DNA from: Kineosporiaceae bacterium
Lineage (GTDB): Bacteria > Actinomycetota > Actinomycetes > Actinomycetales > Kineosporiaceae
DNA length: 64,000 nt
Assembly: GCA_016794595.1 (NCBI GenBank)
Contig: JAEUJN010000066.1
Coordinates: 124,001 to 188,000, forward strand
Direction of reading: 5' to 3'
In this document: one piece after another, positions 48,892 through 64,000 of the stretch
Layout of the letters: each line of letters opens with the position of its first letter
Position numbering within the stretch: position 1 is the stretch's first letter
Made by a program: the position numbers and the translations under genes
The notes under the pieces: generated by a model
Databases searched by the model: none
What the model was told of the DNA's origin: nothing
Seen by the model: the letters and a program-made list of their open reading frames with translations, nothing else

Positions 48892-51429
48892 ATGACCACG
48901 TCATCCCCCGGCCCCGCCCCCCGCCGCCTCGCACCGCTGCGTCGACTGGCCCTTCGCGCTCTGGCGCCCGCCGCCGTCCTGGGTGCCCTGGCCTGGGCGA
49001 TCACGGTGCTCCACCGGCAGCTGCGCGACTACCCCTGGGACCGCTTGGGACCGGCGATCGGCGAGATCGGTGCCATCCCCGTGCTGCTCGCCGTGGTCGC
49101 CACGGGCATCTCCTATCTGGCCATGACCGGCTACGACGCCCTTGCCCTGCGCTACGTCGAGCACCCGCTGCCCTACCGGCGGTTCGCCGCCGCGTCGTTC
49201 GTGGCCACCGCGTTCGGCAACACCCTCGGCGCCTCGGCGGTGGTCGGTGCGGCCCTGCGGGCGCGGGTGTACTCCGCCTGGGGCGTCCCCGCGTTCGCGA
49301 TCACCCGGATCGCGGTGTTCAACCTGGTCACCCTGTCCCTGGGGTGCGGGGTGCTGGCCGCTGCCGGCGTGGCGCACACCCCGGACCGGATCGGCCCCGC
49401 CGTCCACCTGCCCTCGCCGCTGCTGATCGCGATCGCGGTCGTGCTCGTGGTGGCGATCGCCGGCTACGTGCTCTGGTGTGGGGCCGGCAAGGCCCCGATC
49501 AGCGTGCGCGCGTGGCGGATCGACCGGCCGACCCGGCGGCTGGCCGGGGCCCAGCTCGTGCTGTCCACCGTCGAGTGGCTGTCCATGGCCGCGGTGCTCT
49601 ACCTGCTGCTGCCGGACGGCGGACTGGGCTTTGCGACCTTCGCCACGGTGTTCGTGGTCGCCACCGTGGCCGGACTGATGAGCAACGTGCCCGGCGGGCT
49701 CGGGGTGTTCGAGGCCGTGCTGCTGATCGGAATGGACTCCGCGGTCGCCTCGGAGCACCTGGTGACCGCCCTGGTCGCCTACCGGATCATCTACTTCCTG
49801 GCCCCGCTGAGCTTGGCGGCCGTCCTGCTGGCGGTGCTCGAGGCTCGGCGCAGCCCCACCTCGGACGGCGCGATCGCCCGGATCGGGGTGCTCACGCCGT
49901 CCGTGATGGGCCTGAGCGTGGCCGTGCTGGGGGTGGTGCTGGTGATCAGCGGTCGCCTGCCCGGGTACACCTCACCCGCGGACCTGACCGCCTTCAGCGC
50001 GAGCCTGGCCGGCGTCGGCCTGCTGCTGCTCGCCCGCGGCCTGCACCGCCGGCTGCGCGGGGCTCTGGTGGCCAGCCTCGGGGCGTTGACCGTGGTGCTG
50101 ACGGCCGCCCTGCAGGGGGCGACCGTGGTGCCGGCAACGGTGGCCGCGTTGCTCATCGTCGTGCTGGTGCTGGCGCGCAAGGCCTTCGATCGCACCACCT
50201 CGGTGCTGTCCGACCCGCGCGGGTGGGCCTGGTCGCTGACGGTGGCCGGGATCTGCTCGGTGCTGGTCTGGTGGCACGACCTGTGGGTCGGCTCGCGGGC
50301 CGTGGGCGGGCGCACCTGGCTGGCGGCGTCCCTGGGGGATGCCACGCCGGTGTCGGTGCGGGTCGGGCTGTCGGCCGGGGTGCTCGGGCTGGTCGTGGCG
50401 GGGACGCGGTTGCAGACCAGCGGACGCCCCGGCCACGCCATTGCCACCGAGGCCGAACTCGCACTGGCCGAACCGATCCTGGCCCGGGCCCGCACCAGCG
50501 ACGCCTCGCTGCTGTGGACCGGCGACAAGCGGGTGCACTTCTCCCCGCGCGGTGGTGCGTTGCTCATGTACCAGGTGCGCCGGCGCAGCTGGGTGGTGAT
50601 GGGCGACCCGGTGGGGGAGGAAGCCGAGTTCGACGAGCTGCTCTGGTCCTTCCTCGACCTGTGCGACCGCAACCTGGGACGCCCGGTCTTCTACTGCGTC
50701 CACGAGGAGGTCGCCGAGCTCTACCGCCGGCACGGGCTCACCCTGAGCAAGCTCGGGGAAGAAGCGGTCATCGATCTGGCCGGCTTCACCATGCAGGGCA
50801 AGAACCGGGCCAAGCTGCGCTCGGAGGTGCGCTCCAGCGAGCGGGTCGGGGTGAGCGTCGAGATCGTCGAACCCGATCGGGTCCGTGAGGTACTGCCCGA
50901 GCTCCGGGTGGTCTCGGACACCTGGTTGGAGCAGCGCAACGCCCGCGAGAAGACCTTCTCCCTGGGGGCATTCGACGAGGACTACCTGGTCCGGTTCCCG
51001 ATCGCGATCGCCCGCCAGGACGGCGCCGTGGTCGCCTTCGCCTCGCTGTGGGCCAGTGGGGCCCGGCACGAGATCAAGGTCGACCTCATGCGCCGCCTGC
51101 CGGACGCGCCGCGGTGCGTGATGAGCCACCTGTTCGTGGCCGCCATGACCTGGGCTCAGGAGCAGGGCTTCGCCTCGTTCAGCATCGGGATGGCGCCGCT
51201 GAGCGGCCTGGTCGCCGAGGACGGGTACTGGGATCGGATCGGGCACTTCCTGTTCAGCCACGGCGAGCACTTCTACAACTTCCAGGGGTTGCGCCAGTTC
51301 AAGGAGCGCTTCCACCCGCTGTGGCAGCCGCGCTATGTCGCCTCGCCGGGCGGCCCGGCCCTGCCGTCGATCATGCTGGACGTCGCGACCCTGGTCGGTG
51401 GCGGCCTGCGCGGGGTGGTCGCCCGCTGA
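48892..51429 (+). CDS. mprF: Phosphatidylglycerol lysyltransferase MprF-like (flippase plus synthase)
   Basis: 845 residues. The N-terminal ~500 residues form about 14 membrane helices including the UPF0104 flippase part (AASFVATAFGNTLGASAVVG; LMSNVPGGLGVFEAVLLIGM). The cytoplasmic C-terminal ~310 residues are the DUF2156 GNAT-like synthase (FSPRGGALLMYQVRRRSWVV; GKNRAKLRSEVRSSERVGVS; SFSIGMAPLSGLV). The protein adds an amino acid from aminoacyl-tRNA to phosphatidylglycerol and turns it to the outer leaflet, lowering sensitivity to cationic peptides. Lys or Ala specificity is not readable. Its stop is 7 bp from the convergent FG-GAP gene. Confidence 0.92.
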   Translation: MTTSSPGPAPRRLAPLRRLALRALAPAAVLGALAWAITVLHRQLRDYPWDRLGPAIGEIGAIPVLLAVVATGISYLAMTGYDALALRYVEHPLPYRRFAAASFVATAFGNTLGASAVVGAALRARVYSAWGVPAFAITRIAVFNLVTLSLGCGVLAAAGVAHTPDRIGPAVHLPSPLLIAIAVVLVVAIAGYVLWCGAGKAPISVRAWRIDRPTRRLAGAQLVLSTVEWLSMAAVLYLLLPDGGLGFATFATVFVVATVAGLMSNVPGGLGVFEAVLLIGMDSAVASEHLVTALVAYRIIYFLAPLSLAAVLLAVLEARRSPTSDGAIARIGVLTPSVMGLSVAVLGVVLVISGRLPGYTSPADLTAFSASLAGVGLLLLARGLHRRLRGALVASLGALTVVLTAALQGATVVPATVAALLIVVLVLARKAFDRTTSVLSDPRGWAWSLTVAGICSVLVWWHDLWVGSRAVGGRTWLAASLGDATPVSVRVGLSAGVLGLVVAGTRLQTSGRPGHAIATEAELALAEPILARARTSDASLLWTGDKRVHFSPRGGALLMYQVRRRSWVVMGDPVGEEAEFDELLWSFLDLCDRNLGRPVFYCVHEEVAELYRRHGLTLSKLGEEAVIDLAGFTMQGKNRAKLRSEVRSSERVGVSVEIVEPDRVREVLPELRVVSDTWLEQRNAREKTFSLGAFDEDYLVRFPIAIARQDGAVVAFASLWASGARHEIKVDLMRRLPDAPRCVMSHLFVAAMTWAQEQGFASFSIGMAPLSGLVAEDGYWDRIGHFLFSHGEHFYNFQGLRQFKERFHPLWQPRYVASPGGPALPSIMLDVATLVGGGLRGVVAR

Positions 51430-51436
51430 GGCGCTC

Positions 51437-53248
51437 TCAGCGCTGCGCTGTTCCCGCCCGCAGGAGGGAACCGCGGGCGGTGGGCCAGCTCGGTGAACCG
51501 GCCGGCGTACCCGCCTTCGAGCCGGGGACGGTGAACACATCCAGACCGTGGTCGATCGACGTGGTGACGATCTCGAGCGTGCCGTTGCCGTCCAGGTCCG
51601 CGATCGAGGGCGCCGCGGCGATCCCGATGCCGTTGCCGTCGGCGGCCTGCTTCGGCAGCCGCTGGTCACTGATCCTGGCGCCCTTCGGTGACAGCACCAC
51701 CAGCCGGCCGCTGTTGGCCGCCAAGCCGTAGACGCCGAAGACCAGCTCCGGGACGCCGTCCCGGTTCAGGTCGGCAGCCACCACCTCGGAGGCGAAGGTG
51801 CGGGCCTTGCCGGGGGCATATCCATGGCGCCACAACCGCTTTCCGGTCGATGAGATGGCGTACACGTAGCCGTCGTTCCCGGGAAAGACGATCTCTGGTC
51901 TCTTGTCGCCGGTCAGGTCGACCAGCGTCGGGGCGGGGACGCCGCTCGGCGGGTACCAGTCGCCGTCCGCGCGCACGACCGGTTTGCCGGTCAGGGGCAG
52001 GGTCTCGAATCCCTTGTGTCGCCGTCCGGATCGCGCTCCCTTGTTCTGCGCGCCGTCCAGCACCATGACCGCGTGGGCCTGGGTCTCGTACGGCTCCTTC
52101 TTCTCCACGTTCGGGATGCCGATCACCTCGGCCCTGCCGTCGGCGTCGAGGTCACCGACCGATGGCGGGGAGGCGGTCCACTGCAGCCACGGCGTGGTCT
52201 GCACGTTCGGCCAGTCCCCGGTGTGGGAGTGATGGTGGCGGTCCTCGACCGTCGGGGACAGCCAGCGGATGAACTGCCCCCAGCCCAGCCGCTTGCCGGC
52301 AAACCCGCTCTGCCGGTTGGTGTACCAACTGGAGGCCAGCACCGAGGTGCCGTCGTGGTTGAACAGGTTGATCTGGTGGTTGTCGTAGGTGACCACGATC
52401 TCGAGCTGCCGGTCGTCGTCGAGCTGGCCGATCCCCACGTTGAGGCCGTAGGCGCCGTACCCGTGGTTGCCGTAGCCGTTGAAGTCGGCGTCGTTCCCCG
52501 TGCCGCGCAGGGTGTTGTAGCGCGGCCAGGCCGGGGTGTGGCCGCCGGCGGGTTGGTAGACCTTGCCGGTGGCCGCGAACACGAAGACCTGGGCGCCGGT
52601 GCGGGAGGTGTTGGTGGTGGTGGCGACCACCTCGATGGTGCCGTTGCCGTCGAGGTCGGCCGCGGCCAGGCCGCGCACCTCGGGGCTCTGGCCGCCGCTG
52701 GCGACCGAGGCGGGCCAGCCCTTCTTCACCACGAGCTTGCCGGCGCGCCACTCGTAGGCACCGACAGCGCCGTTGCCGCCGACCACGATCTCGCGCACGC
52801 CGTCGCGGTCGAGATCGGCCACCACGGACGGCGCGTAGACCCGTCCCTGGGTTGCGGTTCCGGTGGCGACCCGCTTGCCGGCCGCAGAGTAGACGTAGGT
52901 CGAGTAGAGCGGCGCGACGATCTCGAGCTTCCTGTCGCCGTTCAGGTCGACCAGCGCGGGTGAGGAGAACCAGCCGGTCTGGCCGGGGTCGATCCGGCGC
53001 ACGAACACCGGTGCTCGCACAGCGGCGACCGGAGTCCGGACGATGGCGGTCCCGCCCGGCGTGACCCCGGAGGACGGCGCCGGCGCCGGCGTCCCGGCGG
53101 CTGCCGCGACCGGAGCGGCCACCCGGGCGAGGGACGGTGTGCTCACCGGCGCCTCGGCGGTGGGTGAGGACTGCGCGCAGGCACCGAGCAGCGTGGCAGC
53201 GCCGGTGACGAGCAGGAGCGCGGTGTGGGGACGGATCACGTGCGCCAC
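51437..53248 (-). CDS. FG-GAP/VCBS-repeat lipoprotein
   Basis: 603 residues. TALLLVTGAATLLGACAQSS is a lipoprotein signal with the lipobox LGAC. Then several beta-propeller repeats follow with Ca2+-type loops, e.g. ALVDLNGDRKLEIVAP, VADLDRDGVREIVVGG, AADLDGNGTIEVVATT, GDLDADGRAEVIGI and ADLNRDGVPELVFG. It is thus a membrane-tethered, seven-bladed-propeller-like protein for ligand or glycan binding outside the cell. It starts 1 bp past the stop of the GT87 gene, so the two are one operon. Confidence 0.88.
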   Translation of the reverse strand: MAHVIRPHTALLLVTGAATLLGACAQSSPTAEAPVSTPSLARVAAPVAAAAGTPAPAPSSGVTPGGTAIVRTPVAAVRAPVFVRRIDPGQTGWFSSPALVDLNGDRKLEIVAPLYSTYVYSAAGKRVATGTATQGRVYAPSVVADLDRDGVREIVVGGNGAVGAYEWRAGKLVVKKGWPASVASGGQSPEVRGLAAADLDGNGTIEVVATTTNTSRTGAQVFVFAATGKVYQPAGGHTPAWPRYNTLRGTGNDADFNGYGNHGYGAYGLNVGIGQLDDDRQLEIVVTYDNHQINLFNHDGTSVLASSWYTNRQSGFAGKRLGWGQFIRWLSPTVEDRHHHSHTGDWPNVQTTPWLQWTASPPSVGDLDADGRAEVIGIPNVEKKEPYETQAHAVMVLDGAQNKGARSGRRHKGFETLPLTGKPVVRADGDWYPPSGVPAPTLVDLTGDKRPEIVFPGNDGYVYAISSTGKRLWRHGYAPGKARTFASEVVAADLNRDGVPELVFGVYGLAANSGRLVVLSPKGARISDQRLPKQAADGNGIGIAAAPSIADLDGNGTLEIVTTSIDHGLDVFTVPGSKAGTPAGSPSWPTARGSLLRAGTAQR

Positions 53249-53249
53249 G

Positions 53250-54647
53250 CTAGCCAGGCATGGATCGTCCAGCGGTCATCGTGACGTCAAGACTCTCCTC
53301 GGCCGGCCGGGCGTTCCGGCGGCGGTCGCGCACCGCCAGCCCGCCGAGGGCGACCAGGGCCAGGCCGTACCCCACCCCGGCGACAGCGCTGATCGAGACG
53401 CCCAGGGACGGCGCCAGATAGGCGGGGTAGGCCGCCGCCGCCACGGGGAGCCAGCGTGCCCGCCCGTCGAGGGCCACCAGCGGCACCAGCAGCAGGGCGT
53501 ACCAGGGGTAGCTGATGCCGACGACCGCGAAGGCCAGCCCGACGAGCAGGGTCGCGGCCCGCCAGGGCCGGTCGTGCTCGGCGGTCGAGAAGGCCCACCA
53601 GACGATACCGGCCAGCAGCAGCATGCCGACCACCGCGGCCGAGGAGCCCGGCAGGACCGGCTGCAGCAGCGGGAACCGGGTCCGACCGTCGTAGCCCTCC
53701 TCGGGCAGGTAGCCGGGCAGGAACCCCAGCACCCGCGTTCCCACGGCCACCGCGTGCGGCAGGTAGGCGAGCGTGAGGGTCGCAGCGGCCGCGCCGACGA
53801 GCGCTCGTCGCGCCCGCAGCCGCGGACCGGCCAGGGCGACGAGCACGAGCGCCGGCAGCAGTTTCGTGGCCACGGCGGCACCGATCAGGACGCCGGCGCG
53901 GCGCTGCCGTCCCGCGACCGCGGCCGCCATGGCCAGCACGACCAGCCAGGAGGCGAGGACGTCGACATGCGCGTTCCCGCCGGCTTCGATGATCACCGTC
54001 GGACACCACGCCCACAGCACCGCCTGCCGGGGGTCGCCGCGGCGGCGCAGCACGAGCACCAGGGTGACCGTGGTGGCCGTGGCGAGCAGGGCCGCGAGCA
54101 CCTGCCAGGTGCGGTCGCGCCCGCCGTCCGGCCCGAGTGGGCTCGTGATCACGTGGACGGCGAGGAACTCGGCCTGGGCCACGGGAGGGTAGATCGTCGG
54201 CGAGCGCGGATGGTTCATCCGCGTGCAGGCGTGGGCGAGGCCGGCGGTCTGCGTGGTGCACCCCGGCGCGAACAGCCAGGGCGTGCGCAGCGCGGCGAGC
54301 GCGTCGTCCGTCGGGACGTACCGGTACGGCGAGATCCCGGCCGCCTGGACGCGCCCGTCCCAGGCGTACCGGAAGAAGTCGTCGGTCAGGCGGGGGAGCG
54401 AGGTCATCGCCACCGCCTGCAGGCCGATGCCACCGACGACGATCAGCACGACGGCCGGCCGCACCGGCATCCGGCGCACCGCCCACACCGCGGCCGCGAA
54501 CGTGAGCCAGCAGGCGGCCAGCGCGGCGAGCAGCCGCCAGCGGCCCGAGCCGAGGTCACCCGCGGTCACCACGAGCCGCACCGACACCGCGAGGGCGGCC
54601 AGGGCCGACAGCGCGAGCAGGGTCGATCGCTGCGGGTGGCTGGGCAT
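53250..54647 (-). CDS. GT87/DUF2029-type polyprenol-phosphate mannosyltransferase-like membrane protein
   Basis: 465 residues with at least ten helices. LTDDFFRYAWDGRVQAAGIS after the second or third helix holds the acidic motif of GT-C glycosyltransferases (DDFFRYAWDG). NHPRSPTIYPPVAQAEFLAV and AGGNAHVDVLASWLVVL continue the family pattern. It would move a sugar, often mannose, from a polyprenyl donor to an extracytoplasmic acceptor. It is divergent from a molybdoprotein gene and shares an operon with the FG-GAP lipoprotein. Confidence 0.82.
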   Translation of the reverse strand: MPSHPQRSTLLALSALAALAVSVRLVVTAGDLGSGRWRLLAALAACWLTFAAAVWAVRRMPVRPAVVLIVVGGIGLQAVAMTSLPRLTDDFFRYAWDGRVQAAGISPYRYVPTDDALAALRTPWLFAPGCTTQTAGLAHACTRMNHPRSPTIYPPVAQAEFLAVHVITSPLGPDGGRDRTWQVLAALLATATTVTLVLVLRRRGDPRQAVLWAWCPTVIIEAGGNAHVDVLASWLVVLAMAAAVAGRQRRAGVLIGAAVATKLLPALVLVALAGPRLRARRALVGAAAATLTLAYLPHAVAVGTRVLGFLPGYLPEEGYDGRTRFPLLQPVLPGSSAAVVGMLLLAGIVWWAFSTAEHDRPWRAATLLVGLAFAVVGISYPWYALLLVPLVALDGRARWLPVAAAAYPAYLAPSLGVSISAVAGVGYGLALVALGGLAVRDRRRNARPAEESLDVTMTAGRSMPG

Positions 54648-54698
54648 GCGCCCACTCTGCCCCGCGCAGGCAGCGCGCGGCGAGCGCGGCGGCGAGGT

Positions 54699-54715
54699 GT
54701 TCAGCGTTCCGTAAG
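54699..54715 (-). promoter_or_regulatory. Candidate shared regulatory motif (copy in the GT87/molybdoprotein promoter region)
   Basis: Read on the minus strand: CTTACGGAA, four bases, GAAC. The same CTTACGGAA with GAAC three bases on occurs at 58343-58358 in the divergent region of the two-component system. The location, 35 bp before the molybdoprotein GTG and 51 bp from the GT87 start, suits a regulator site. Confidence 0.4.
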
Positions 54716-54749
54716 ACCTCTGCCTGGCCGTTCCGCCTAGCGTCGAGGA

Positions 54750-55955
54750 GTGATCGAGCTCCCGAGCGCCCGCGCCGTGCTGCACCCTGTCGACGAGCCC
54801 TTCCCGCCCGGTGCGCACGACACCCGCAGCGCGGTGACCATCGGGCGGCTGCTCGGCATCGCCGTGGCCGTCGCCTTCGTCACCGGCATGATCAGCCACC
54901 TGCACCAGCACCCGCTCGGCTGGCTGGACCTGCCGAGCCGCCCGGTGTGGGGCTATCGCGTCACCCAGGGGCTGCACGTGATCGCCGGGATCGCGGCGAT
55001 CCCGTTGCTGCTGGCCAAGTTGTGGGTGGTCTACCGTCACCTGTTCGTCTGGCCACCGGTGCGGGACGCCGCGCACGCCGTCGAGCGTCTGCTGCTCGTG
55101 CCCCTCGTGGCCGGCATGCTCTTCGAGGTCACCAGCGGGCTGCTCAACGTGGTGCGCTGGTACCCGTGGCCGTTCTTCTTCCCGCGGGTGCACTACGGGG
55201 TGGCCTGGATGGTCGTCGGATCGCTCGCAGCCCACCTCGCCTTCAAGTGGTGGGCCGTTTGTGGACGGATCCCGGAACCCGTTGCAGCGCAGCCGGTTCT
55301 GGGGGACGAGCCGCTCGCCTCGCCCGGTGCTGCCGGTGCTGCCGGTGCTGCCGGAGCGCCGGACGCCGATCGGCGCGCCCTGCTCATCGGTGCGCTCGCC
55401 TCGACGGCGGCCGTGACCCTGGCCACGGCGGGGCAGACCGTGCCGGCACTGCACGCGATCTCGGCGCTGAAACCACGGGACCCGCTCGCCGGACCGCAGG
55501 GCCTGGCCGTCAACCGGACGGCGAGCGCTGCCGGGGTCCGTTCTGCCGCACTGGATCCCGGCTGGCAGCTCACCCTCGCCGCCGGCGACCGGGTGACCCG
55601 GTTCACCCTCGCGGACCTGGTTGCGATGCCGCAACAGGTCGCGCGGCTGCCCCTGGCCTGCGTCGAAGGCTGGAGCGCCGAGGCGGAGTGGACGGGCGTT
55701 CCGTTGCGGGCGTTGCTGTCGGCTGCGGGGGTGCCGGCCGATGCCCACCTGCGGGCGGTGTCGCTGGAGCGGAACTGGCTCTACGCGAACTCCCCACTGA
55801 ACCCGGCGCAGGCCTGGGACCCGTTGACCCTGCTGGCGTTGCGTCTCGACGGTGAGCCGCTCGACCTCGACCACGGGTACCCGCTGCGACTGATCGGCCC
55901 GAACCGTCCCGGGGTGCACCAGACCAAGTGGCTCGAGCGGATCGAGGTGGCATGA
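54750..55955 (+). CDS. Molybdopterin-dependent oxidoreductase with N-terminal membrane domain (sulfite-oxidase-like)
   Basis: 401 residues, GTG start. The N-terminal ~180 residues hold four or five helices with conserved-type His (MISHLHQHP, QGLHVIAGIAAIP, VHYGVAWMVVGSLAAHLAFK), resembling a b-type cytochrome or ferric-reductase-like anchor. After an Ala/Gly linker and a further hydrophobic stretch comes a sulfite-oxidase-type Mo domain. LPLACVEGWSAEAEWTGVPL holds the Mo-ligand Cys; SLERNWLYANSP and GYPLRLIGPNRPGVHQTKWL complete it. It is probably an exported-face oxidoreductase; substrate unknown. The stop overlaps the next gene as ATGA. Confidence 0.87.
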   Translation: MIELPSARAVLHPVDEPFPPGAHDTRSAVTIGRLLGIAVAVAFVTGMISHLHQHPLGWLDLPSRPVWGYRVTQGLHVIAGIAAIPLLLAKLWVVYRHLFVWPPVRDAAHAVERLLLVPLVAGMLFEVTSGLLNVVRWYPWPFFFPRVHYGVAWMVVGSLAAHLAFKWWAVCGRIPEPVAAQPVLGDEPLASPGAAGAAGAAGAPDADRRALLIGALASTAAVTLATAGQTVPALHAISALKPRDPLAGPQGLAVNRTASAAGVRSAALDPGWQLTLAAGDRVTRFTLADLVAMPQQVARLPLACVEGWSAEAEWTGVPLRALLSAAGVPADAHLRAVSLERNWLYANSPLNPAQAWDPLTLLALRLDGEPLDLDHGYPLRLIGPNRPGVHQTKWLERIEVA

Positions 55956-56254
55956 ACGCGCATCGGATGCCGCGGGCCGGCTGGGTCGTGGTCGCGGCAG
56001 GTGTCCTCGCCATCGGCTGGGGGCTGTGGCAATTGGTCGTCGTGGCGCCGAGTGCCACGCGTCCGGTCGCGGCCGCAGCCTGGCTCGCGGGCGCCCTGAT
56101 CGTGCACGACGGCGTGATCGCCCCGGTGGCGGTGCTCGTCGGCCTGCTGCTGGTGCGCTCGCTGACGCCGCGCTCACGCCGCCTGGTCGCCGTGCTGGCG
56201 TTCGTCGCCGTCAGCCTGCTCGTGCTCGCCCTGCCGGGTCTGCTCAGGCCCTGA
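55952..56254 (+). CDS. Small membrane protein, two or three helices
   Basis: 100 residues. WVVVAAGVLAIGWGLWQLVV, AAAWLAGALIVHDGVIAPVA and LVAVLAFVAVSLLVLALPGL are membrane helices. It is coupled to the molybdoprotein by ATGA, so it may be a partner subunit. Its 3' end overlaps the convergent methyltransferase gene by 11 bp. I do not recognise a named family. Confidence 0.8.
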   Translation: MNAHRMPRAGWVVVAAGVLAIGWGLWQLVVVAPSATRPVAAAAWLAGALIVHDGVIAPVAVLVGLLLVRSLTPRSRRLVAVLAFVAVSLLVLALPGLLRP

Positions 56255-56921
56255 CACGGGCCGGCTGTGAGGCCGGGCTGCGGTGGGCGCGCCGCATGGT
56301 GACGAACCGGCGGTCGCCGTCCCGCCACACCAGGTCCACCTGCCAGCCGGCCGCGGCGGCCGCGTCCGTCAGTGCCCGCGCGCCGACCGCGGCCCACGGG
56401 AACTCCGGGCCGAGAGTGTCGTCGGGCAGGCGCAGCCGGCTCGTCCCGCGGTGATCGATCTCCTCGGGGTGCACCTCGACGGCGACGGCGCCGTCCGGGA
56501 CGACCAGCGCCCCGATCCGCTCGAGCAGCCGAACGGGGTCACCGCCGATGCCGATGTTCCCGTCGGCCAGCACCGCCCAGCGCCAGCGGCCCTCGCCGGG
56601 GAGCCGGGTGAACACGTCGCGCTGCAGTGCGGTCGCCCCGCGGGCACGGGCATGGCGCACGGCCTCGGCGGAGATGTCGATCCCCAGGGCGGGCAGGCCG
56701 AGGTGGGCCAGGGCGACGGTCAGCCGGCCAGGGCCGCACCCGATGTCGATGGTCGCGCCGGTGCAGTGCGACAGCATGCGCAGGTCGACCGGGTCCGCGT
56801 CCCAGAGCCAGCGACCGGTGTGATGGCGTTCGACCAGGTCCCCGCCGTGGTGCAGTTCGACCCAGCCGCCGGCGTCCCGGGCGCCGGTGAAGTGCGACAA
56901 CTCCGCGATGATGCCGGTCAT
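56244..56921 (-). CDS. Class I SAM-dependent methyltransferase
   Basis: 225 residues. TIDIGCGPGRLTVALAHLGL is motif I, ALGIDISAEAVRHARARGAT motif II, and AVLADGNIGIGGDPVRLLER lies at the post-II strand. It methylates an unknown acceptor. It is third in the GT2-DUF2064-methyltransferase operon; its ATG overlaps the preceding stop as ATGA. Confidence 0.87.
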   Translation of the reverse strand: MTGIIAELSHFTGARDAGGWVELHHGGDLVERHHTGRWLWDADPVDLRMLSHCTGATIDIGCGPGRLTVALAHLGLPALGIDISAEAVRHARARGATALQRDVFTRLPGEGRWRWAVLADGNIGIGGDPVRLLERIGALVVPDGAVAVEVHPEEIDHRGTSRLRLPDDTLGPEFPWAAVGARALTDAAAAAGWQVDLVWRDGDRRFVTMRRAHRSPASQPARVRA

Positions 56922-57589
56922 CGCCCCGCCGTCCCCGGCTCGGCCGCTGCCGACGTCAGGTGGGAGACCAGCATGCCGAAGCGGGTGAGCGGCGCCGCCG
57001 TGGCCACTGCCAGGGCGTCGGCGCCCTCGTCGACGTCGCGCACCACCGGCAGGTCGACGACGGTCAACCCACATTGCGCCAGGCGGTCTCGGGTCGCGGC
57101 CCCCGTCCGTGGGGTGGACATCGGCACGTCGGCGAGCACGCGCCGGGCGTCGCGGCGCGGGTGCCGCAACCCGAGGGCCCACCATCCGCCGTCCTCGGCG
57201 ATCCCGAGCCAGGCGTCGGCCGGAGCGTCGAGGTCGAGCCGCAGCAGTGCCGGGGTGACCTGCGGGGTGTCCATGCCGATCAGGACGGCCGGCCCGGTGA
57301 CCTGCTCGAAAGCGGCGATGATGCGCTCCCCATGGCTACCCTCAACCTGCGGGACCACGCGGAACCCGGTGAGCGACAAGGACTCCGGCAGCTCCGAGAC
57401 CATCCCGTCCAGCACCAGGACCCGGGCGGTCACCTCGGCGGCACGCACGGCGTCCAGGGTGTCGGCCAAGGCGGCGGCCGCGAGCGCGGCGGCGCCGTCG
57501 GCGCCGAAGGTGGGGATGAGCCGGGTCTTGCTGTGGCCGGCCCTGGGGGCCTTCGCCAGCACCAGCGCCGTGGACGCCCGGCGGGTCAC
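56918..57589 (-). CDS. DUF2064 (TIGR04282-type) nucleotide-sugar-transferase-like protein
   Basis: 223 residues, GTG start overlapping the GT2 stop as GTGA. TALVLAKAPRAGHSKTRLIP is the signature of this GT-A-fold group (KTRL). LIGMDTPQVTPALLRLDL and GIAEDGGWWALGLRHP are the next conserved blocks. TIGR04282 members are named after arsenosugar biosynthesis, but in actinobacteria the family is widespread and the product is not established. It acts with a GT2 and a methyltransferase here. Confidence 0.85.
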   Translation of the reverse strand: MTRRASTALVLAKAPRAGHSKTRLIPTFGADGAAALAAAALADTLDAVRAAEVTARVLVLDGMVSELPESLSLTGFRVVPQVEGSHGERIIAAFEQVTGPAVLIGMDTPQVTPALLRLDLDAPADAWLGIAEDGGWWALGLRHPRRDARRVLADVPMSTPRTGAATRDRLAQCGLTVVDLPVVRDVDEGADALAVATAAPLTRFGMLVSHLTSAAAEPGTAGR

Positions 57590-58308
57590 GACGGCGGTTC
57601 CTCGGCGAGGACCCGGCGCATGTCGTGCACGGCTCGCAGCGTCCCGCGGACGGTGCCGGTCACCTTGGATCGTCCGGCGCGCGGGGAGTACCGGACGTCG
57701 ACCTCCGCCAGCCGCCAGCCGGCAGTGGCGGCTCGCAGCACCATCTCGAGCGGGAAGCCGGATCGGCGGTCGCGCAGACCGAGTGCCACGATCGCGTCCC
57801 GGCGAGCCGCTCGCATCGGCCCCAGGTCGTGCAGCCGGGAGCCGGTGCGGCGGCGGATCAGGTGCGCCAGAACGTGGTTCGCCAGGCGCGCGTGCAGGGG
57901 CCAGGCAGTGGCGCTGGTCGGGCGCCGCCGCCCGAGCACCAGGTCGGCCGTGCCGTCGACCACCGGGGTGACGACCCGTGGCAGCTCGCGCAGGTCGAGC
58001 GAGGCGTCGGCATCGCAGAAGGCGACCACCGGGGCCGTTGCCGCTGCCAGGCCGGCCGCGCAGGCCGCGCCGAACCCGCGGCGTGGCTCGCTGACCACGG
58101 TCGCACCCAGCCGCCGCGCGATCGCTGCGCTGCCGTCCGTGGACCCGTTGTCGACCACGATCGCCCGCATCCCGGTGGGCAGGCCGGCGAGCACCGTCGG
58201 CAGCGCGGCGGCCTCGTCCAGGCAGGGCAACACCACGTCGACGACCGCATCGGGCGCCGCGGTCTCCGGCGATCGAGTGGTGGGTGGTCGTGGGACAGGA
58301 GGGATCAC
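57586..58308 (-). CDS. Glycosyltransferase family 2
   Basis: 240 residues, a polyprenyl-phosphate-sugar-synthase-like GT2. VVLPCLDEAAALPTVL, IVVDNGSTDGSAAIARRLGA, RGFGAACAAGLAAATAPVVA, then FCDADASLDLRELP holds the metal-binding Asp pair. GPMRAARRDAIVALGLRDRR and EVDVRYSPRAGRSKVTGTVR continue the pattern. It probably attaches a sugar from a nucleotide donor to a lipid carrier or small molecule. First gene of its operon, divergent from the two-component system. Confidence 0.88.
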   Translation of the reverse strand: MIPPVPRPPTTRSPETAAPDAVVDVVLPCLDEAAALPTVLAGLPTGMRAIVVDNGSTDGSAAIARRLGATVVSEPRRGFGAACAAGLAAATAPVVAFCDADASLDLRELPRVVTPVVDGTADLVLGRRRPTSATAWPLHARLANHVLAHLIRRRTGSRLHDLGPMRAARRDAIVALGLRDRRSGFPLEMVLRAATAGWRLAEVDVRYSPRAGRSKVTGTVRGTLRAVHDMRRVLAEEPPS

Positions 58309-58342
58309 GCCGGGAGCCTAAGCGCGACCGCACCGCTGAAGG

Positions 58343-58358
58343 CTTACGGAAATCGAAC
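58343..58358 (+). promoter_or_regulatory. Candidate shared regulatory motif (copy in the GT2/two-component promoter region)
   Basis: CTTACGGAAATCGAAC lies 34 bp from the GT2 start and 52 bp before the response-regulator ATG. A matching CTTACGGAA...GAAC is in the other divergent region of this cluster (54699-54715, opposite strand). A binding site for the OmpR-type regulator is the simplest reading, though two copies cannot define a site. Confidence 0.4.
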
Positions 58359-58410
58359 GGCCCTGTACTGTCTGCGCGGCTGTCGTCGCGGATGCTCCTA
58401 GGCTCGGTGC

Positions 58411-59112
58411 ATGCCGTCGCGTGTGCTCGTCGTCGAGGACGACGCAACCGTGGCCGAAGTGGTGCGAACCTACCTGGAACACGCTGGGTTCGAGATCGCG
58501 CAGGCCATGGACGGGGTCACGGCGCTGAGCCTCGCCGGTCGCCGGACACCGGACCTGGTGGTGCTCGACCTGATGCTGCCGGGGCTGTCCGGGCTCGAGG
58601 TGTGCGCCCGGTTGCGGCAGTCCCGTCCCGACCTTCCGGTGATCATGCTCACCGCGCTCGGCGAGGAGTCGGATCGGTTGCTCGGGCTGGAATCGGGCGC
58701 CGACGACTATCTCGTCAAGCCGTTCAGCCCTCGCGAGCTGGTGCTGCGCGTGCAGTCGGTGCTGCGGCGCACGACGCGCACGGCGACGGCCGGCCAGTAC
58801 GCGGCCCGCCGGCTGCTGTGCGGCGACCTCGACGTTGACCTCGTCGCCCGGCGGCTCGCCCGCAACGGCAAGGTACTGCCGTTGACCAACCGCGAGTTCG
58901 ACCTGCTCGCGCACCTGATGTCGCATCCGCGTGAGGCCTTCACCCGCGAACGGCTGATGCACGAGGTCTGGGGCTGGGACTTCGGTGACACCTCCACGGT
59001 GACCGTGCACGTGCGACGGCTCCGCGAGAAGGTCGAGCCCGACCCCGGCGCCCCGAGTCGCTTGGTGACCGTCTGGGGTGTCGGCTATCGCTGGGACGGG
59101 GAGGTCGCATGA
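58411..59112 (+). CDS. OmpR/PhoB-family response regulator
   Basis: 233 residues. Receiver: RVLVVEDDATVAEVVRTYLE with the acidic pocket, VVLDLMLPGLSG with the phosphoacceptor Asp, VIMLTALGEESDRL, and the Lys in YLVKPFSPREL. Winged helix: LPLTNREFDLLAHLMSHPRE, then VTVHVRRLREKVEPDPGAPS and VWGVGYRWDG. It is coupled to the histidine kinase gene by an ATGA overlap. Confidence 0.95.
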   Translation: MPSRVLVVEDDATVAEVVRTYLEHAGFEIAQAMDGVTALSLAGRRTPDLVVLDLMLPGLSGLEVCARLRQSRPDLPVIMLTALGEESDRLLGLESGADDYLVKPFSPRELVLRVQSVLRRTTRTATAGQYAARRLLCGDLDVDLVARRLARNGKVLPLTNREFDLLAHLMSHPREAFTRERLMHEVWGWDFGDTSTVTVHVRRLREKVEPDPGAPSRLVTVWGVGYRWDGEVA

Positions 59113-60263
59113 ACCGGGCGACGGCCGAGATCGTACTGCTCGGGCTGGGGCTGTCCGGTGGCGTGGCCCTGCTCGGTTTGCTCGTGGTGCGCCTGGGTCC
59201 GCGGTCGGTGCGAGCCTCCATGATCGCGGTGTCGCTGGTCGCCGTTGCCTCGATGGTGATGGGGGTGGCCGGCGCGGCGCGGGCGATGTTCATCTCGGCG
59301 CACGACCTCGGCGTCGTGCTGCCGGTGACGGCCGTGGCGTCGCTGGTCGCGGTGACGGTGTCCTGGCTGCTGTCCAGGCGGTTGGTCGAGGATGTGGATC
59401 GCGTTCGCATCACCGCTCGTTCGCTCGGCGGACACGGCGACACCTGGGCGGCGGCTCCCGCCCGGCCAACCTCGCGGGCGTCGTCGCCGCGGTTGCGCGA
59501 GCTCACGGACATCGAGACCGAGCTGCTGATGGCGCGGGAGCACCTGATCGCGTCCCGGGTGCGGGAGCAGGCACTGGAGATCTCGCGGCAGGAACTGATC
59601 GCCTGGGTGAGCCATGACCTGCGGACTCCGCTGGCCGGCCTGCGGGCGATGGCAGAGGCGCTCGAGGACGGTGTCGCCCCCGACCCGGATCGCTACCACC
59701 GGCAGATCCGGCGCGAGGTCGACCGGCTCAGTGCGCTCGTCGACGACCTGTTCGAGCTCTCCCGGATCCGTTCCGGCCGAATGGCGCTCACGCTGCGGGA
59801 CATCGATCTGCAGGATTTGGTGGCCGACGTCGTCTCCGGGTCGGTTCCCATGGCCAGGGCTGGGGGCGTGATCCTCGACGCCGCAGCCGATGCGGCGCCG
59901 GTGCGGGTCGACGCCGGGGGCATGGCGCGCGTGCTGACCAACCTCGTGGTCAACGCGATCCGGCACACCCCCTCGGACGGCGCGGTGCAGGTGTCGGGCC
60001 GACGCCATGGCGACGAGGTGGTCCTCTCGGTGAGCGATGGCTGCGGTGGGATCCCGGACGACGATCTCAGCCGGGTGTTCGAGCCCGGATGGCGAGGGGA
60101 CGGGGTGGGTCAGGCCCGGACGCCGCGCCCGGACGGCGGTGCCGGACTCGGGCTCGCCATTGCTCGCGGCATCGTGGAGGCACACCAGGGCCGGATCAGC
60201 GTGCGCAACACGAGCACCGGGTGCTGTTTCGACGTCCGGCTGCCGGCGGCGTCGGCGGTCTGA
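59109..60263 (+). CDS. Sensor histidine kinase
   Basis: 384 residues. Three hydrophobic segments (EIVLLGLGLSGGVALLGLLV, SMIAVSLVAVASMVMGVAGA, VLPVTAVASLVAVTVSWLLS) lead to a HAMP-like linker. H-box ELIAWVSHDLRTPLAGLRAM holds the phosphorylated His; N-box VLTNLVVNAIRHTP; G-boxes DGCGGIPDDD and GGAGLGLAIARG. There is hardly any extracytoplasmic loop, so it senses in or near the membrane. It pairs with the response regulator before it. Confidence 0.94.
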   Translation: MNRATAEIVLLGLGLSGGVALLGLLVVRLGPRSVRASMIAVSLVAVASMVMGVAGAARAMFISAHDLGVVLPVTAVASLVAVTVSWLLSRRLVEDVDRVRITARSLGGHGDTWAAAPARPTSRASSPRLRELTDIETELLMAREHLIASRVREQALEISRQELIAWVSHDLRTPLAGLRAMAEALEDGVAPDPDRYHRQIRREVDRLSALVDDLFELSRIRSGRMALTLRDIDLQDLVADVVSGSVPMARAGGVILDAAADAAPVRVDAGGMARVLTNLVVNAIRHTPSDGAVQVSGRRHGDEVVLSVSDGCGGIPDDDLSRVFEPGWRGDGVGQARTPRPDGGAGLGLAIARGIVEAHQGRISVRNTSTGCCFDVRLPAASAV

Positions 60264-60363: not shown

Positions 60364-61392
60364 TCAGCAGGTGATCCCGGCCAGCTCGCTCACGCCGTCC
60401 CGGAAGGCGACCCTCGGCGTCCACCCCAGTTCGGTGCGGATCCGCGCGGTGTCGGCGGTGACGTGCCGGACGTCGCCGAGCCGGAACCGGCCGGTCACCA
60501 CGGGGGTGGCTCCGCCCATCACCTGGGACAGCACGGCGGCCAGGTCACCGATGGTGCGCTGCTCACCGCTGCCCACGTTGTAGACCGCCGTCCCGCCATC
60601 GGGCGTTGTCGCGCCGAGGGCCGCGAGGTTCGCGTCGGCCACGTCGTCCACGTGCACGAAGTCCCGCCGCTGCGCGCCGTCCTCGAAGACCTGCGGCGGC
60701 TCGCCGCATTCGATCGCCGAACGGAAGATCGCGGCGACGCCGGCATAGGGCGTATTGCGCGGCATGCCGGGCCCGTACACGTTGTGGTAGCGCAGGGCGA
60801 TGACCGACCCCCCGCACTCCCGGGCCCAGACCCGGGACAACTGCTCCTGCGTGAGCTTGCTGACGGCGTAGGCGTTCCGCGGGTCCGGTGCGGTCTCCTC
60901 GCCGACGAGCAGCGGCTGCAGGCCATGGCCGCAGTGCGGGCACGGCGGGTCGAACCGTCCGGCGGCGAGGTCGGCGACGGCCCGTGGTGGGGCAGGGACG
61001 GTGCCGTGGTCCGGACAGCGGTAGCGGCCCTCGCCGTAGACCACCATCGACGACGCCAGTACCAGCCGGCGGACGCCGACTCGCGCCATGGCCGCCAGCA
61101 CCACACCGGTGCCGACGTCGTTCGCGGAGGCGTAGTCCGGCATGTCGTCGAGGTCCACGCCGAGTCCGACCTTGGCCGCTTGGTGGTTCACGGCGTCGAC
61201 GCCTCGCAGCGCCGACTCGACGGCGTCCCGGTCGCGGACGTCCCCGCGCACGAACTCGGCGCCGGCCAGCGCCGTGGTGGGATCGACGAGGTCGAGGACG
61301 CGGACCCCGTGTCCGGCGCCGAGCAGCGCCCGTACCACGGCCGACCCGATGAACCCTGCACCACCAGTGACGAGAACTCTCACCCTCGTCAC
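60364..61392 (-). CDS. NAD-dependent epimerase/dehydratase (dTDP-L-rhamnose 4-epimerase-like)
   Basis: 342 residues, extended SDR. VLVTGGAGFIGSAVVRALLG binds NAD; LASSMVVYGEG and NAYAVSKLTQEQL supply the catalytic Ser and the YxxxK pair. Between them is a four-ligand insert (CPDH, then CPHCGHG ~30 residues later), a zinc-ribbon-like loop found in dTDP-L-rhamnose 4-epimerase-like SDRs. RYHNVYGPGMPRNTPYAGVA follows as expected. It probably makes a nucleotide sugar for envelope glycans. GTG 61392 is 1 bp after the small lipoprotein stop. Confidence 0.87.
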   Translation of the reverse strand: MTRVRVLVTGGAGFIGSAVVRALLGAGHGVRVLDLVDPTTALAGAEFVRGDVRDRDAVESALRGVDAVNHQAAKVGLGVDLDDMPDYASANDVGTGVVLAAMARVGVRRLVLASSMVVYGEGRYRCPDHGTVPAPPRAVADLAAGRFDPPCPHCGHGLQPLLVGEETAPDPRNAYAVSKLTQEQLSRVWARECGGSVIALRYHNVYGPGMPRNTPYAGVAAIFRSAIECGEPPQVFEDGAQRRDFVHVDDVADANLAALGATTPDGGTAVYNVGSGEQRTIGDLAAVLSQVMGGATPVVTGRFRLGDVRHVTADTARIRTELGWTPRVAFRDGVSELAGITC

Positions 61393-61393
61393 T

Positions 61394-61633
61394 CTAGGTC
61401 AGGCAAGTCCCTGACGCCGAGGTGCCGGCGCTGATCGGAGACGGTTGGGTTGCCGGTGTCGCGGGCAGTTGGGCCGCACCCGCTGCCGCGGCCGGTGCCT
61501 GAGCCGCGGTGGGCAGGGTGGCAGCCACGGGTGAGGAGTTCTCGGTCGGTGCGGTCGAGGCCCCGCAGGCGGCGGTGGCCCCGATCATCAGCGCGTACAG
61601 TGACACCGGGACGGCACGACCCGAGTCGATCAC
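61394..61633 (-). CDS. Small Ala/Pro-rich putative lipoprotein
   Basis: 79 residues from GTG 61633. VSLYALMIGATAACGASTAP looks like a short lipoprotein signal (AACG). The remainder is low-complexity Ala/Pro/Thr/Ser, ending SASGTCLT. It lies between copC (45 bp upstream) and the epimerase gene (1 bp downstream), same strand. No ribosome-binding site is clear. It may be a lipid-anchored linker protein or a truncated larger gene. Confidence 0.45.
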   Translation of the reverse strand: MIDSGRAVPVSLYALMIGATAACGASTAPTENSSPVAATLPTAAQAPAAAAGAAQLPATPATQPSPISAGTSASGTCLT

Positions 61634-61678: not shown

Positions 61679-62299
61679 TCAAGACGAGGATCGCCGGTTG
61701 CGGGCCCACAGTCCGCCGATCCCGGCCAGCGCGGCGAGCACTGCCGCGCCGGCGATGACGAACCGGGACGTCGAGCCGCCGCCCTCGGTGCCGGCCGTGG
61801 GGTCCAGAGGGGACACCACGTCCGGGGAGGCGCCGGCGGAGACACCGCCGGCCGGCTCACTCGCTGCGGGGCTGACGGCCGCTGCGCTGGTGGCCGCTGT
61901 GCCGGCGGGGGTCGAGGCGCCGCCGAGGACCGTGTAGCCGAACGTGCCCGAGATCGGGTGCCCGTCGGCGCTGGTGACCCGCCACAGCACGGTGAACTGG
62001 CCGCTTCCCGCCGCGTCGGGCACCGGAGCGCTGGCCACCGGCCCATCGGTCGCGACGGTCAGCATGGTGGTGCCGCCAGGGCCGGTGAGGCGCATCTGGG
62101 CGGTGCCCTTCAGCACGTTCTCGGTGTAGGTGATCCGGATCAGGGCCGGCGGCGTGCTGAGCACCGAGCCATCGGCGGGCTCGAGTTCACGGACTCCCGA
62201 GTGCGCCTGGGCAGGTATCGCAAGGGTGAACAAGGCGCACGTCAGGAAGGCCACGAGAGCGGCCGACTGTCCGATGCGGGAGGGAAGCGGGGAACGCAT
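61679..62299 (-). CDS. CopC-domain copper-resistance-like protein with C-terminal membrane helix
   Basis: 206 residues. Signal peptide AALVAFLTCALFTLAIPAQA, cleaved before HSGVRELEPADGS, which puts the first copper-binding His at the mature N terminus. YTENVLKGTAQMRLTGPGGT and VTSADGHPISGTFGYTVLGG (second His site) complete the CopC domain (to residue ~120). A Pro/Ser/Ala linker and a C-terminal helix (FVIAGAAVLAALAGIGGLWA) with RNRRSS anchor it. It binds copper outside the membrane; no CopD is adjacent. Confidence 0.92.
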   Translation of the reverse strand: MRSPLPSRIGQSAALVAFLTCALFTLAIPAQAHSGVRELEPADGSVLSTPPALIRITYTENVLKGTAQMRLTGPGGTTMLTVATDGPVASAPVPDAAGSGQFTVLWRVTSADGHPISGTFGYTVLGGASTPAGTAATSAAAVSPAASEPAGGVSAGASPDVVSPLDPTAGTEGGGSTSRFVIAGAAVLAALAGIGGLWARNRRSSS

Positions 62300-62666
62300 T
62301 GCGCCATCCTGTCAGTGCGGCGACGCGGCGATGCGGCGATCTCGACCGTGCGCTGGATCTCCTGGAGCAGCTGCGGCTTGACATGCGAAACAAGTTTCAG
62401 AAATATTGTTTCGTAGATAGGTGGAGTGAACCAGGTCCACAGGTTGAGGCCCCAGGCGGTCCGGTATCCCGGCTCAGCGCGGCTTCGCCCTTCGGGCGTG
62501 GCGGCCCGTGTCCGAGGAGGTCATGCCCTGGTGTCGGTCGAGTGGTCGAGTGGGTGGGAGTGGGCCTCGTGACGGCGACACCGTCGGGGTTGATGCGTTG
62601 CGGCATCGGGCCACGCCGACGGGTCTGGCGTCCGACACGCCCCGGTGTCGCCTCGGGGGTGCACGG
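62300..62666. promoter_or_regulatory. 367-bp divergent region between copC and ppc, with AT-rich inverted repeats
   Basis: No gene is supported. At 62386-62413 an AT-rich block has 8-bp arms CGAAACAA and TTGTTTCG around a 12-bp centre. Inside it GAAACAAGTTTC (62387-62398) is itself an inverted repeat, and GAAATATTGTTTC follows. Such stacked half-sites look like operators, 87 bp before the copC start. The remainder to 62666 is ordinary GC-rich sequence. Confidence 0.55.
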
Positions 62667-64000
62667 ATGAGCGTGCTCCCTCCGCAGCGTTCGCCCGGCG
62701 CCGGGCTGCCTTCCGCGATCTCGGCTCCACCCGCCGAGATCGATGAGCCCGCGACACAGTTCACAGCGACCCTCCAGGGGGACCTCGACCTGCTCTGCGG
62801 ACTGCACGCACAGGTGTGGCGGGAGTCCGGTCGCGGCGATCTGGTGGACCTCATGAGTCGGTTGGTGGATGCCTGCCGCGCGCCCGTGGAGGCCCCCGGC
62901 GAGTTGCCGGACGGCGCCGCCGCCGCGCGGATCGCGGCCGACCTGGACGCCGACGTGGCCGCCGAGCTGACCCGTGCGGTCACCGTCCACCTCCATCTGA
63001 CCAACCTGGCCGACGAGCGGCATCGGTCCCGACGGCTGCGTGCCGAGGACCCCGAGTACGCCGGTGGCCTGGACACCGGGGACGTGTGGCCGGCGCTCGA
63101 GGCGATCGGCGACGCGGCGGTGCGCCTCGAACACCTGAGGATCCACCCGGTGCTGACTGCCCACCCGACCGAGGCGCGCCGCCGGGCGGTGTCCTCGGCG
63201 CTGCGCCGGATCGCCGGACAGCTCGACCGGATGGACGACCCGGCGAACGGGCCGGGGAGCGGGCCATGGCCAGGCGACGGCTGCTGGAGGAAATCAACAT
63301 CCTCCAGCGGACGTCGACCCTCCGGCGCACCCGTCCGGAGCCGTCCGACGAGGTGAAGACGGCGCTCACGGTCTTCCACCAGACCCTCTTTCGGGCCGTT
63401 CCCCGGCTCTACCGGGTCGTCGAGAGGGCGCTGGCGCAGCAGGAGGCGGGTGAGGGCCAACCCGACGGCCGAGGTCCGGTCCGTGTCCCGGCCTTCGTCC
63501 GGTTCGGCAGCTGGGTCGGCGGCGACCGGGACGGAAACCCGTTCGTGACCGCCGAGGTCACCCGAAACACCCTGGCCACCCAGGCGGATGAGGCCCTCGC
63601 CTTGTTGTCCGCTCAGGTCGACAGGGTGGCGCGCACCCTGACCATGGACTCCCACGCCAGCCCGCCGTCCGCAGCACTCCTCACCGCCCTCGCCAACGAC
63701 GCCGTGGCGATGCCCGAGACGATGGCCCGCATCGTCAAGGACTCCCCCTGCGAGCCGCACCGGCAGAAGCTGCTCGTCGTCGGCGCCCGGGTGGCGGCCA
63801 CCAGATCAGAGCGGGCCGGATCGGCCTACGCCGATCCCCAGGACATGCTCTCCGATCTGATCCTGGTGCAGGACAGCCTGATCGGCGCCGGTGACACCCG
63901 CAGCGCCTACGGCGAGCTGCAGCACCTGATCTGGCTGGTGCAGACCTTCGGATTCCACCTCGCCGAGCTGGAGGTGCGCCAGCACAGCGCTGTCCACGAG
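62667..64000 (+). pseudogene. ppc: Phosphoenolpyruvate carboxylase, 5' part, with an apparent one-base frameshift; runs off the window
   Basis: From ATG 62667 the first ~197 codons read as PEP carboxylase: VTVHLHLTNLADERHRSRRL and EHLRIHPVLTAHPTEARRRA, the His motif of the active site. Past MDDPANGP (to ~63253) the frame turns to junk and stops at 63356. The family continues in another frame from ~63257: ERAMARRRLLEEINILQRTS, then FVRFGSWVGGDRDGNPFVTA, open to the window end. One more G in the run 63254-63257 would restore one reading frame. This is either a real frameshift mutation or a base-calling error in a homopolymer. The enzyme makes oxaloacetate from PEP and bicarbonate. Confidence 0.88.

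Follow-up and report, generated by a model that had tools for sequence, protein, structure and literature searches.

The 64,000-nucleotide stretch of a Kineosporiaceae bacterium analysed here (contig JAEUJN010000066.1; hereafter the window) carries, beside the genes of an OmpR-type response regulator and its histidine kinase, a short motif that recurs in two spacers between divergently transcribed genes. To judge from their fixed positions before the same genes in many actinobacteria, these repeats are real control sites, and comparison of the loci suggests that the neighbouring sensor-regulator pair very probably activates a group of membrane and sugar-transfer genes. We consider it highly likely that the two repeats are operators of the adjacent regulator, which would bind them as a head-to-tail dimer and activate four divergent leaderless operons.

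A sequence-only reading of the window had pointed to a 9-mer, CTTACGGAA, followed by GAAC three or four bases on, and the coordinates and strands that it gave for both copies proved exact to the base. Copy 1, CTTACGGAAATCGAAC, lies at 58343-58358 (+) in the spacer between the genes of a GT2 glycosyltransferase and the response regulator (site A), and copy 2, CTTACGGAACGCTGAAC, at 54699-54715 (-) in the spacer between those of a GT87 glycosyltransferase and a molybdoprotein (site B); as had been claimed, both gene pairs are divergently transcribed. The composite CTTACGGAA-N3/4-GAAC was found twice in the window's genome (4,954,352 bases), both times in the window, against one match of the backward pattern, and the bare 9-mer has three copies genome-wide against 12 of its backward control. 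The third copy (contig C31), which lacks an in-phase promoter and has argS- and homoserine-dehydrogenase-like frames nearby, as judged by reading of translations, was set aside as chance. Because counts in the window alone are unremarkable (9-mer with at most one mismatch, 2 found vs. 1.76 expected; N4 form with at most two mismatches, 1 vs. 0.36), the significance of the motif derives from relatives and from the scan of the whole genome. A looser scan of the same genome with a 17-base pattern and up to two mismatches returned 20 matches vs. 37 for the backward control, and in the absence of a surplus no wider regulon was found there; the only loose matches with promoters at the distances described below were the two known sites.

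Relatives were sampled in two ways. A GT2 search of 98 genomes gave nine with a GT2 of more than 50% identity, the window's own included, and 80 loci, mostly from Streptomyces but also from many other actinobacterial genera, were taken out of 434 confirmed stretches; in these 80, the cluster genes, and only these, were placed by tblastn. Divergent GT2 and regulator genes occur at 53 loci, comprising 49 of the 80, the window, and three loci from the 98-genome search. Among the 52 spacers of relatives, CTTACG is present in 48, pointing toward the regulator in all 48 and toward GT2 in none. When hexamers were counted without regard to the motif of the sequence-only reading, CGTAAG/CTTACG itself was the commonest (48/52; the top 6-mer in 30 base shuffles reached 33), and the commonest 8-mer, CTTACGAA, occurred in 35 of the 52 spacers (shuffles, 12). 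The conservation check that had been suggested thus found the motif kept upstream of the same genes in many actinobacteria.

The alignment also changed the description of the motif. A second ACG follows the first at a distance of 11 base pairs (bp) in 41 of 53 CTTACG copies, the next offsets being 5 (18 copies) and 7 (10 copies), which agrees with the 10-11 bp operator period expected for OmpR/PhoB-type regulators. Across 48 aligned sites, one of them from the window, conservation extends beyond the nine-base seed (A15 in 47/48, C16 in 46/48, and G17 in 40/48). The GAAC noted three or four bases on is present, but the variable gap "N3 or N4 GAAC" was rejected as the conserved unit; what is conserved is a second half-site placed 11 bp after the first, and the motif is better described as an 11-bp direct repeat, about CTTACGRAAcn-CKGACGtcg. 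In the window the second half-site reads CGAACGG at site A and, less well matching, CTGAACA at site B, and the direct-repeat character is accordingly clear at the former and weak at the latter.

A matrix built from 47 relatives' GT2/regulator sites (maximum score 39.6 bits) yielded 127 matches of at least 12 bits in the 1,488,627 bases of the 80 loci, vs. one in the reversed control. For 119 of the 127 a cluster-gene start lies within 420 bp, with the gene pointing away (8/127 lack one), and none falls inside the mapped stretches of cluster genes, which were the only genes mapped. Frequent random occurrence inside genes, which had been named as the outcome that would speak against the motif, was therefore not encountered, the 9-mer itself having only its three genomic copies. 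The matches precede GT2/regulator, epimerase, molybdoprotein, and GT87 genes, and in many Streptomyces also the gene of an approximately 450-residue membrane protein that faces the molybdoprotein, with no GT87 match. A strict pattern applied to 10 whole genomes gave 27 matches, 21 of them before cluster-type genes (backward control, 3). In the window, the two best matrix matches are the two sites already known, and the third best scores only 5.9 bits:

58341-58362, + strand: candidate regulator site A, GG-CTTACGGAAAT-CGAACGG-CC (second-best match, 12.7 bits)
54696-54717, - strand: candidate regulator site B, GT-CTTACGGAACG-CTGAACA-CC (best match, 14.4 bits; weak second half-site)

The presence of sites follows that of the regulator. 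Of the 80 loci, 50 contain the regulator gene (beside GT2 in 49, about 5 kb off in L062), 18 belong to genomes that carry it elsewhere, and 12 to genomes with none; orthologues score 234.8 bits or more, the best homologue in orthologue-less genomes reaching at most 205.3 bits, and a match anywhere in a locus was counted as a site. Matches of at least 12 bits were present in 46/50, 11/18, and 0/12 loci, respectively (Fisher p 2e-8, uncorrected for relatedness), i.e. in 57 of the 68 loci whose genome has an orthologue vs. none of the 12 others, and lowering the threshold to 10 bits gave 46/50, 13/18, and 0/12. Since the orthologue-less genomes are spread over Marisediminicola, Nocardiopsis, Agreia (two), Blastococcus, Saccharopolyspora, Curtobacterium, Streptomyces (three), and two metagenome-assembled genomes, several separate losses are likely. 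A 13.2-bit match inside the coding part of another regulator gene in three orthologue-less genomes (L127-L129) was counted as chance. Where the regulator gene lies elsewhere in the genome, a site stands upstream of it in 14 of 18 cases at 9 bits (reversed in L102) and in 12 of 18 at 12 bits, and three of those 14 genes adjoin a second GT2 cluster. Two further GT2 clusters of one genome (L151 and L172), with no regulator in the 3-kb locus, have high-scoring sites at the same 31-bp distance, and the site-less GT2 clusters L047 and L084 are second copies, the other copy in the same genome having the site. In a set of eight relatives, an orthologue was found in seven (nine matches).

The positions of promoters relative to the sites were then compared for each site and each outward-pointing cluster gene, with a promoter defined as a -10-like box NANNNT lying 6-7 bases ahead of an open frame's start codon. 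Such a leaderless -10 box was present in 154 of 179 site-gene pairs of relatives. On the downstream side of the site, distances to the -10 box were 24 bp (3 pairs), 34-36 bp (48), 45-47 bp (28), or other (4), so that 79 of 83 fall on stated distances; on the upstream side they were 20-21 bp (3), 30-32 bp (62), or other (6), i.e. 65 of 71. Some off-distance pairs stem from tandem or second sites. The steps correspond to one helical turn (11 bp) and are seen over unrelated gene families. With the midpoint of the two half-sites as reference, upstream and downstream distances are out of step by about half a turn; a true centre about 2.5 bp further on would make them equal. In a same-family relative (L007) the distances are 20 bp for GT2 and 34 bp for GT87, and all four predicted window promoters fit, each with its -10 box 6 bases before the start codon:

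58399-58404, + strand: -10 box TAGGCT of the response-regulator promoter, then 6 bases and ATG at 58411 (leaderless); 36 bp from site A
58315-58320, - strand: -10 box TAGGCT of the GT2 promoter, then 6 bases and GTG at 58308 (leaderless); 20 bp from site A
54738-54743, + strand: -10 box TAGCGT of the molybdoprotein promoter, then 6 bases and GTG at 54750 (leaderless); 20 bp from site B
54654-54659, - strand: -10-like box CAGAGT of the GT87 promoter, its first base not T, then 6 bases and ATG at 54647 (leaderless); 36 bp from site B

In the -35 region of 21 epimerase promoters, no spacer position exceeded 0.5 bits. In 28 regulator promoters, selected for their gap of 45-47 bp, an extended -10 element (GGTGC-GAGGCT) is conserved. 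In 37 aligned GT2 promoters (L046 and other loci), TCCGGTATGCCC is conserved in the spacer from the site to the -10 box, a stretch not seen in the epimerase or regulator promoters aligned alongside.

Taken together, these observations suggest the following mechanism, in which the spacing and the protein family are our grounds for inferring dimer binding, phosphorylation, and activation. The kinase encoded next door would phosphorylate the response regulator, whose receiver domain and Trans_reg_C winged helix place it in the OmpR/PhoB type and whose gene overlaps that of its partner kinase. A head-to-tail dimer of the phosphorylated protein would bind the 11-bp direct repeat CTTACGRAAcn-CKGACGtcg and activate leaderless promoters that have a good -10 box and, where tested, no recognisable -35 box, with transcription presumably starting at the start codon. 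The site-to--10 distance would change by whole turns, taking values near 20 or 31 bp upstream of the site and near 24, 35, or 46 bp downstream of it, because the site must keep a fixed helix face relative to RNA polymerase. Site A would serve the GT2-DUF2064-methyltransferase operon and the regulator-kinase pair itself (autoregulation), and site B the operons of the molybdoprotein with a small membrane protein and of GT87 with an FG-GAP protein. Control of four operons by the adjacent OmpR-type regulator, as proposed in the sequence-only reading, thus gains comparative support from the footprint, the repeat period, the spacing to the four promoters, the co-occurrence with the orthologue, and the sites before regulator genes located elsewhere; the 11-bp repeat, the leaderless promoters, and the rule of spacing go beyond what that reading had noticed. 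The genes concerned are:

58411-59112, + strand: OmpR-type response regulator, proposed binder of both sites (Response_reg PF00072, 110.5 bits; Trans_reg_C PF00486, 92.6 bits)
59109-60263, + strand: histidine kinase (HisKA, HATPase_c), overlapping the regulator stop codon
57586-58308, - strand: GT2 glycosyltransferase (Glycos_transf_2), first gene of its operon
56918-57589, - strand: DUF2064 protein (PF09837; TIGR04282 109.8 bits, below the cut-off of 134) of the GT2 operon, overlapping GT2
56244-56921, - strand: methyltransferase-like protein (Methyltransf_25 and related models) of the GT2 operon
54750-55955, + strand: membrane-anchored molybdopterin oxidoreductase (Oxidored_molyb, residues 271-400), first gene of its operon
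55952-56254, + strand: small membrane protein (by reading of its sequence) of the molybdoprotein operon, overlapping the molybdoprotein stop; no match in Pfam or NCBIfam
53250-54647, - strand: GT87 membrane glycosyltransferase (PF09594), first gene of its operon; the start at 54647 was chosen because the leaderless promoter sits there
51437-53248, - strand: FG-GAP repeat protein (FG-GAP_3), 1 base after GT87 and probably in the same operon

Several observations weigh against this interpretation. The scores of both window sites are low (14.4 and 12.7 bits against a possible 39.6), the second half-site of site B is poor, and the window's epimerase, a common target in relatives, has no regulator site. 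Matches before GT2/regulator are circular, since the matrix was trained on such sites, which does not apply to the other matches, and the counts overstate independence because most of the 80 loci are from Streptomyces. By the rule applied, 25 of the 179 site-gene pairs have no leaderless promoter (14 of them molybdoproteins), and six of the 27 strict matches are not before cluster-type genes. Among the 50 loci with the regulator, four (L057, L088, L091, and L095) carry nothing better than a diverged site scoring under 12 bits, and L086 has a single match, which does not precede a cluster gene and whose omission lowers the stricter count to 45/50; of the 18 loci with the regulator elsewhere, seven have no 12-bit site. 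Closer to the window, a site of at least 9 bits stands by GT2 in five of the nine loci of more than 50% GT2 identity. Three (L010, L012, and L014) have no site by GT2, and L008 has only a repeat below 9 bits, yet with both half-sites perfect (CTTACGGTCGG-CTTACG); the orthologue is present in the genomes of L008, L010, and L014, and at the threshold used none was found in that of L012. A site of at least 9 bits lies directly before the regulator in three of the nine matches from the set of eight relatives (L181, L182, and L185), and in the family to which the window belongs three regulator genes (L177, L178, and L184, from two genomes) all lack a 9-bit site directly upstream. Given these patchy upstream sites, autoregulation is not a general feature, and it is least evident close to the window. 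Separately, in the same-family relative L184 a small lipoprotein-like gene is preceded by a 22-bit site (3595-3616; upstream gap 19), which lies about 1.4 kb from a second regulator copy.

Other explanations of the repeat were weighed against the same data. Binding followed by repression, which we consider unlikely and less probable than activation, would suit the window in that two -10 boxes are no more than 20 bp away from the site, which would encroach on a -35 region, and autoregulated two-component genes can be repressed; however, in pairs on the stated distances the site is centred near -43 to -70 relative to the start codon, clear of both the -10 box and the start, the whole-turn spacing is explained by contact-dependent activation and is not needed for blocking, and no conserved -35 box precedes the epimerase. 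It is very improbable that the repeat is instead part of a promoter, e.g. the -35 element of an extracytoplasmic function (ECF) sigma factor: although GGAA(C) resembles such elements, the distance to the -10 box takes several discrete values between about 20 and 46 bp, one copy serves promoters on both sides, and an 11-bp repeat is present. To a chance repeat in two spacers we give next to no credence, for while the 9-mer count in the window alone is what chance gives, the genome-wide rarity and the conservation contradict it.

The repeat might also be the operator of a different OmpR-type regulator with an 11-bp direct-repeat target, the foremost candidate being the widespread actinobacterial regulator MtrA; we regard this as improbable. 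In the passages of PMC12323332 concerned, the MtrA box of MtrAB is given as GTAACC-N5-GTAACC, so that this system shares with that of the window an OmpR-type regulator, an actinobacterial host, and a direct repeat with the same 11-bp period, and the MtrA model is also the best NCBIfam model for the window regulator. Yet its score, 228.1 bits, stays below the equivalog cut-off of 300 bits, the half-site differs (here CTTACG/CKGACG), and, by reading, residues at the presumed position of the recognition helix differ between the window regulator and one MtrA. The regulon mapped here is mostly confined to one cluster, whereas that of MtrA is described as broad. Moreover, the site is absent from the locus in all 12 genomes without the regulator orthologue, and in seven of the eight orthologue-less genomes tested the best remaining homologue exceeds the MtrA cut-off; MtrA alone does not therefore keep the site. 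The adjacent regulator, acting as an activator from the 11-bp repeat, is the explanation that we favour.

Several known systems invite comparison. In Escherichia coli, the two-component system HprSR controls msrPQ, which encodes a periplasmic molybdo-oxidoreductase. The window molybdoprotein matches MsrP weakly (38.9 bits; cut-off 207), and the window system, compared by description, differs in having glycosyltransferases in the regulon and a kinase with a short sensor. The PHO box is built of 11-bp units and bound head-to-tail; its half-site differs from the present one, and there are no phosphate genes among the targets mapped here. SCO3740/SCO3741 was considered as a candidate pair in Streptomyces coelicolor, for which a counterpart could not be assigned. 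The passages of PMC9739842 concerned list SCO3740/SCO3741 as an OmpR-type system without a name and describe the PHO box of Streptomyces PhoP, an OmpR/PhoB-type regulator, as several copies of a repeat unit. S. coelicolor Sco5282/Sco5283 (GarS/GarR) likewise combines an OmpR-type regulator with a translationally coupled kinase, which is described as having two membrane domains and a HAMP domain, and the relevant passages of that source make no mention of a glycosyltransferase/molybdoprotein cluster (PMC6629963). Among the matches listed from the open-licence literature, no published study of this two-component system or gene set was recognised; one may be in print elsewhere.

Some features of the region are reported for completeness. 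The kinase (59109-60263) has a short sensor in which a loop, M..S.HDL, is conserved in at least 90% of 50 aligned sequences (MFISAHDL in the window) between apparent membrane stretches and is possibly the signal site. An epimerase gene is also among those around the regulator, and its promoter (61392-61500) is of the leaderless type (TAGAGT, 7 bases, GTG); upstream of it lies a gene for a CopC-domain protein (61679-62299). Beyond the FG-GAP gene, 48892-51429 encodes an MprF-like lysylphosphatidylglycerol synthase (LPG_synthase_C and TM). The reading frame 62502-64000, presumably phosphoenolpyruvate-carboxylase-like, appears to shift frame at about 63270-63290 (frameshift or sequencing error). 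Naming the cluster after the arsenosugar pathway was rejected, as both DUF2064 (TIGR04282, 109.8 of 134 bits) and GT2 (TIGR04283, 39.6 of 182 bits) fall below the cut-offs. From the gene families, our guess would be that the cluster serves cell-surface glycosylation (polyprenyl-phosphate-sugar) and envelope redox repair.

A more general proposition, toward which we lean slightly, is that a single head-to-tail operator, being asymmetric, activates a divergent pair of leaderless promoters without a -35 box. Its spacings would be fixed but unequal, about 20/31 bp on one side and 24/35/46 bp on the other, with orientation and helix face recognised jointly; holding across unrelated gene families and several actinobacterial families, this rule would allow a two-component regulon that is apparently undescribed to be predicted from DNA sequence alone. 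With an operator, a target list, and a spacing rule for a widespread actinobacterial two-component system, its signal and function become directly approachable. In many Streptomyces the operator is high-scoring and mostly confined to the cluster, which makes reporter and gel-shift testing easy, and the approximately 150 natural site-promoter pairs offer material for studying how an OmpR-type activator may act on leaderless promoters.

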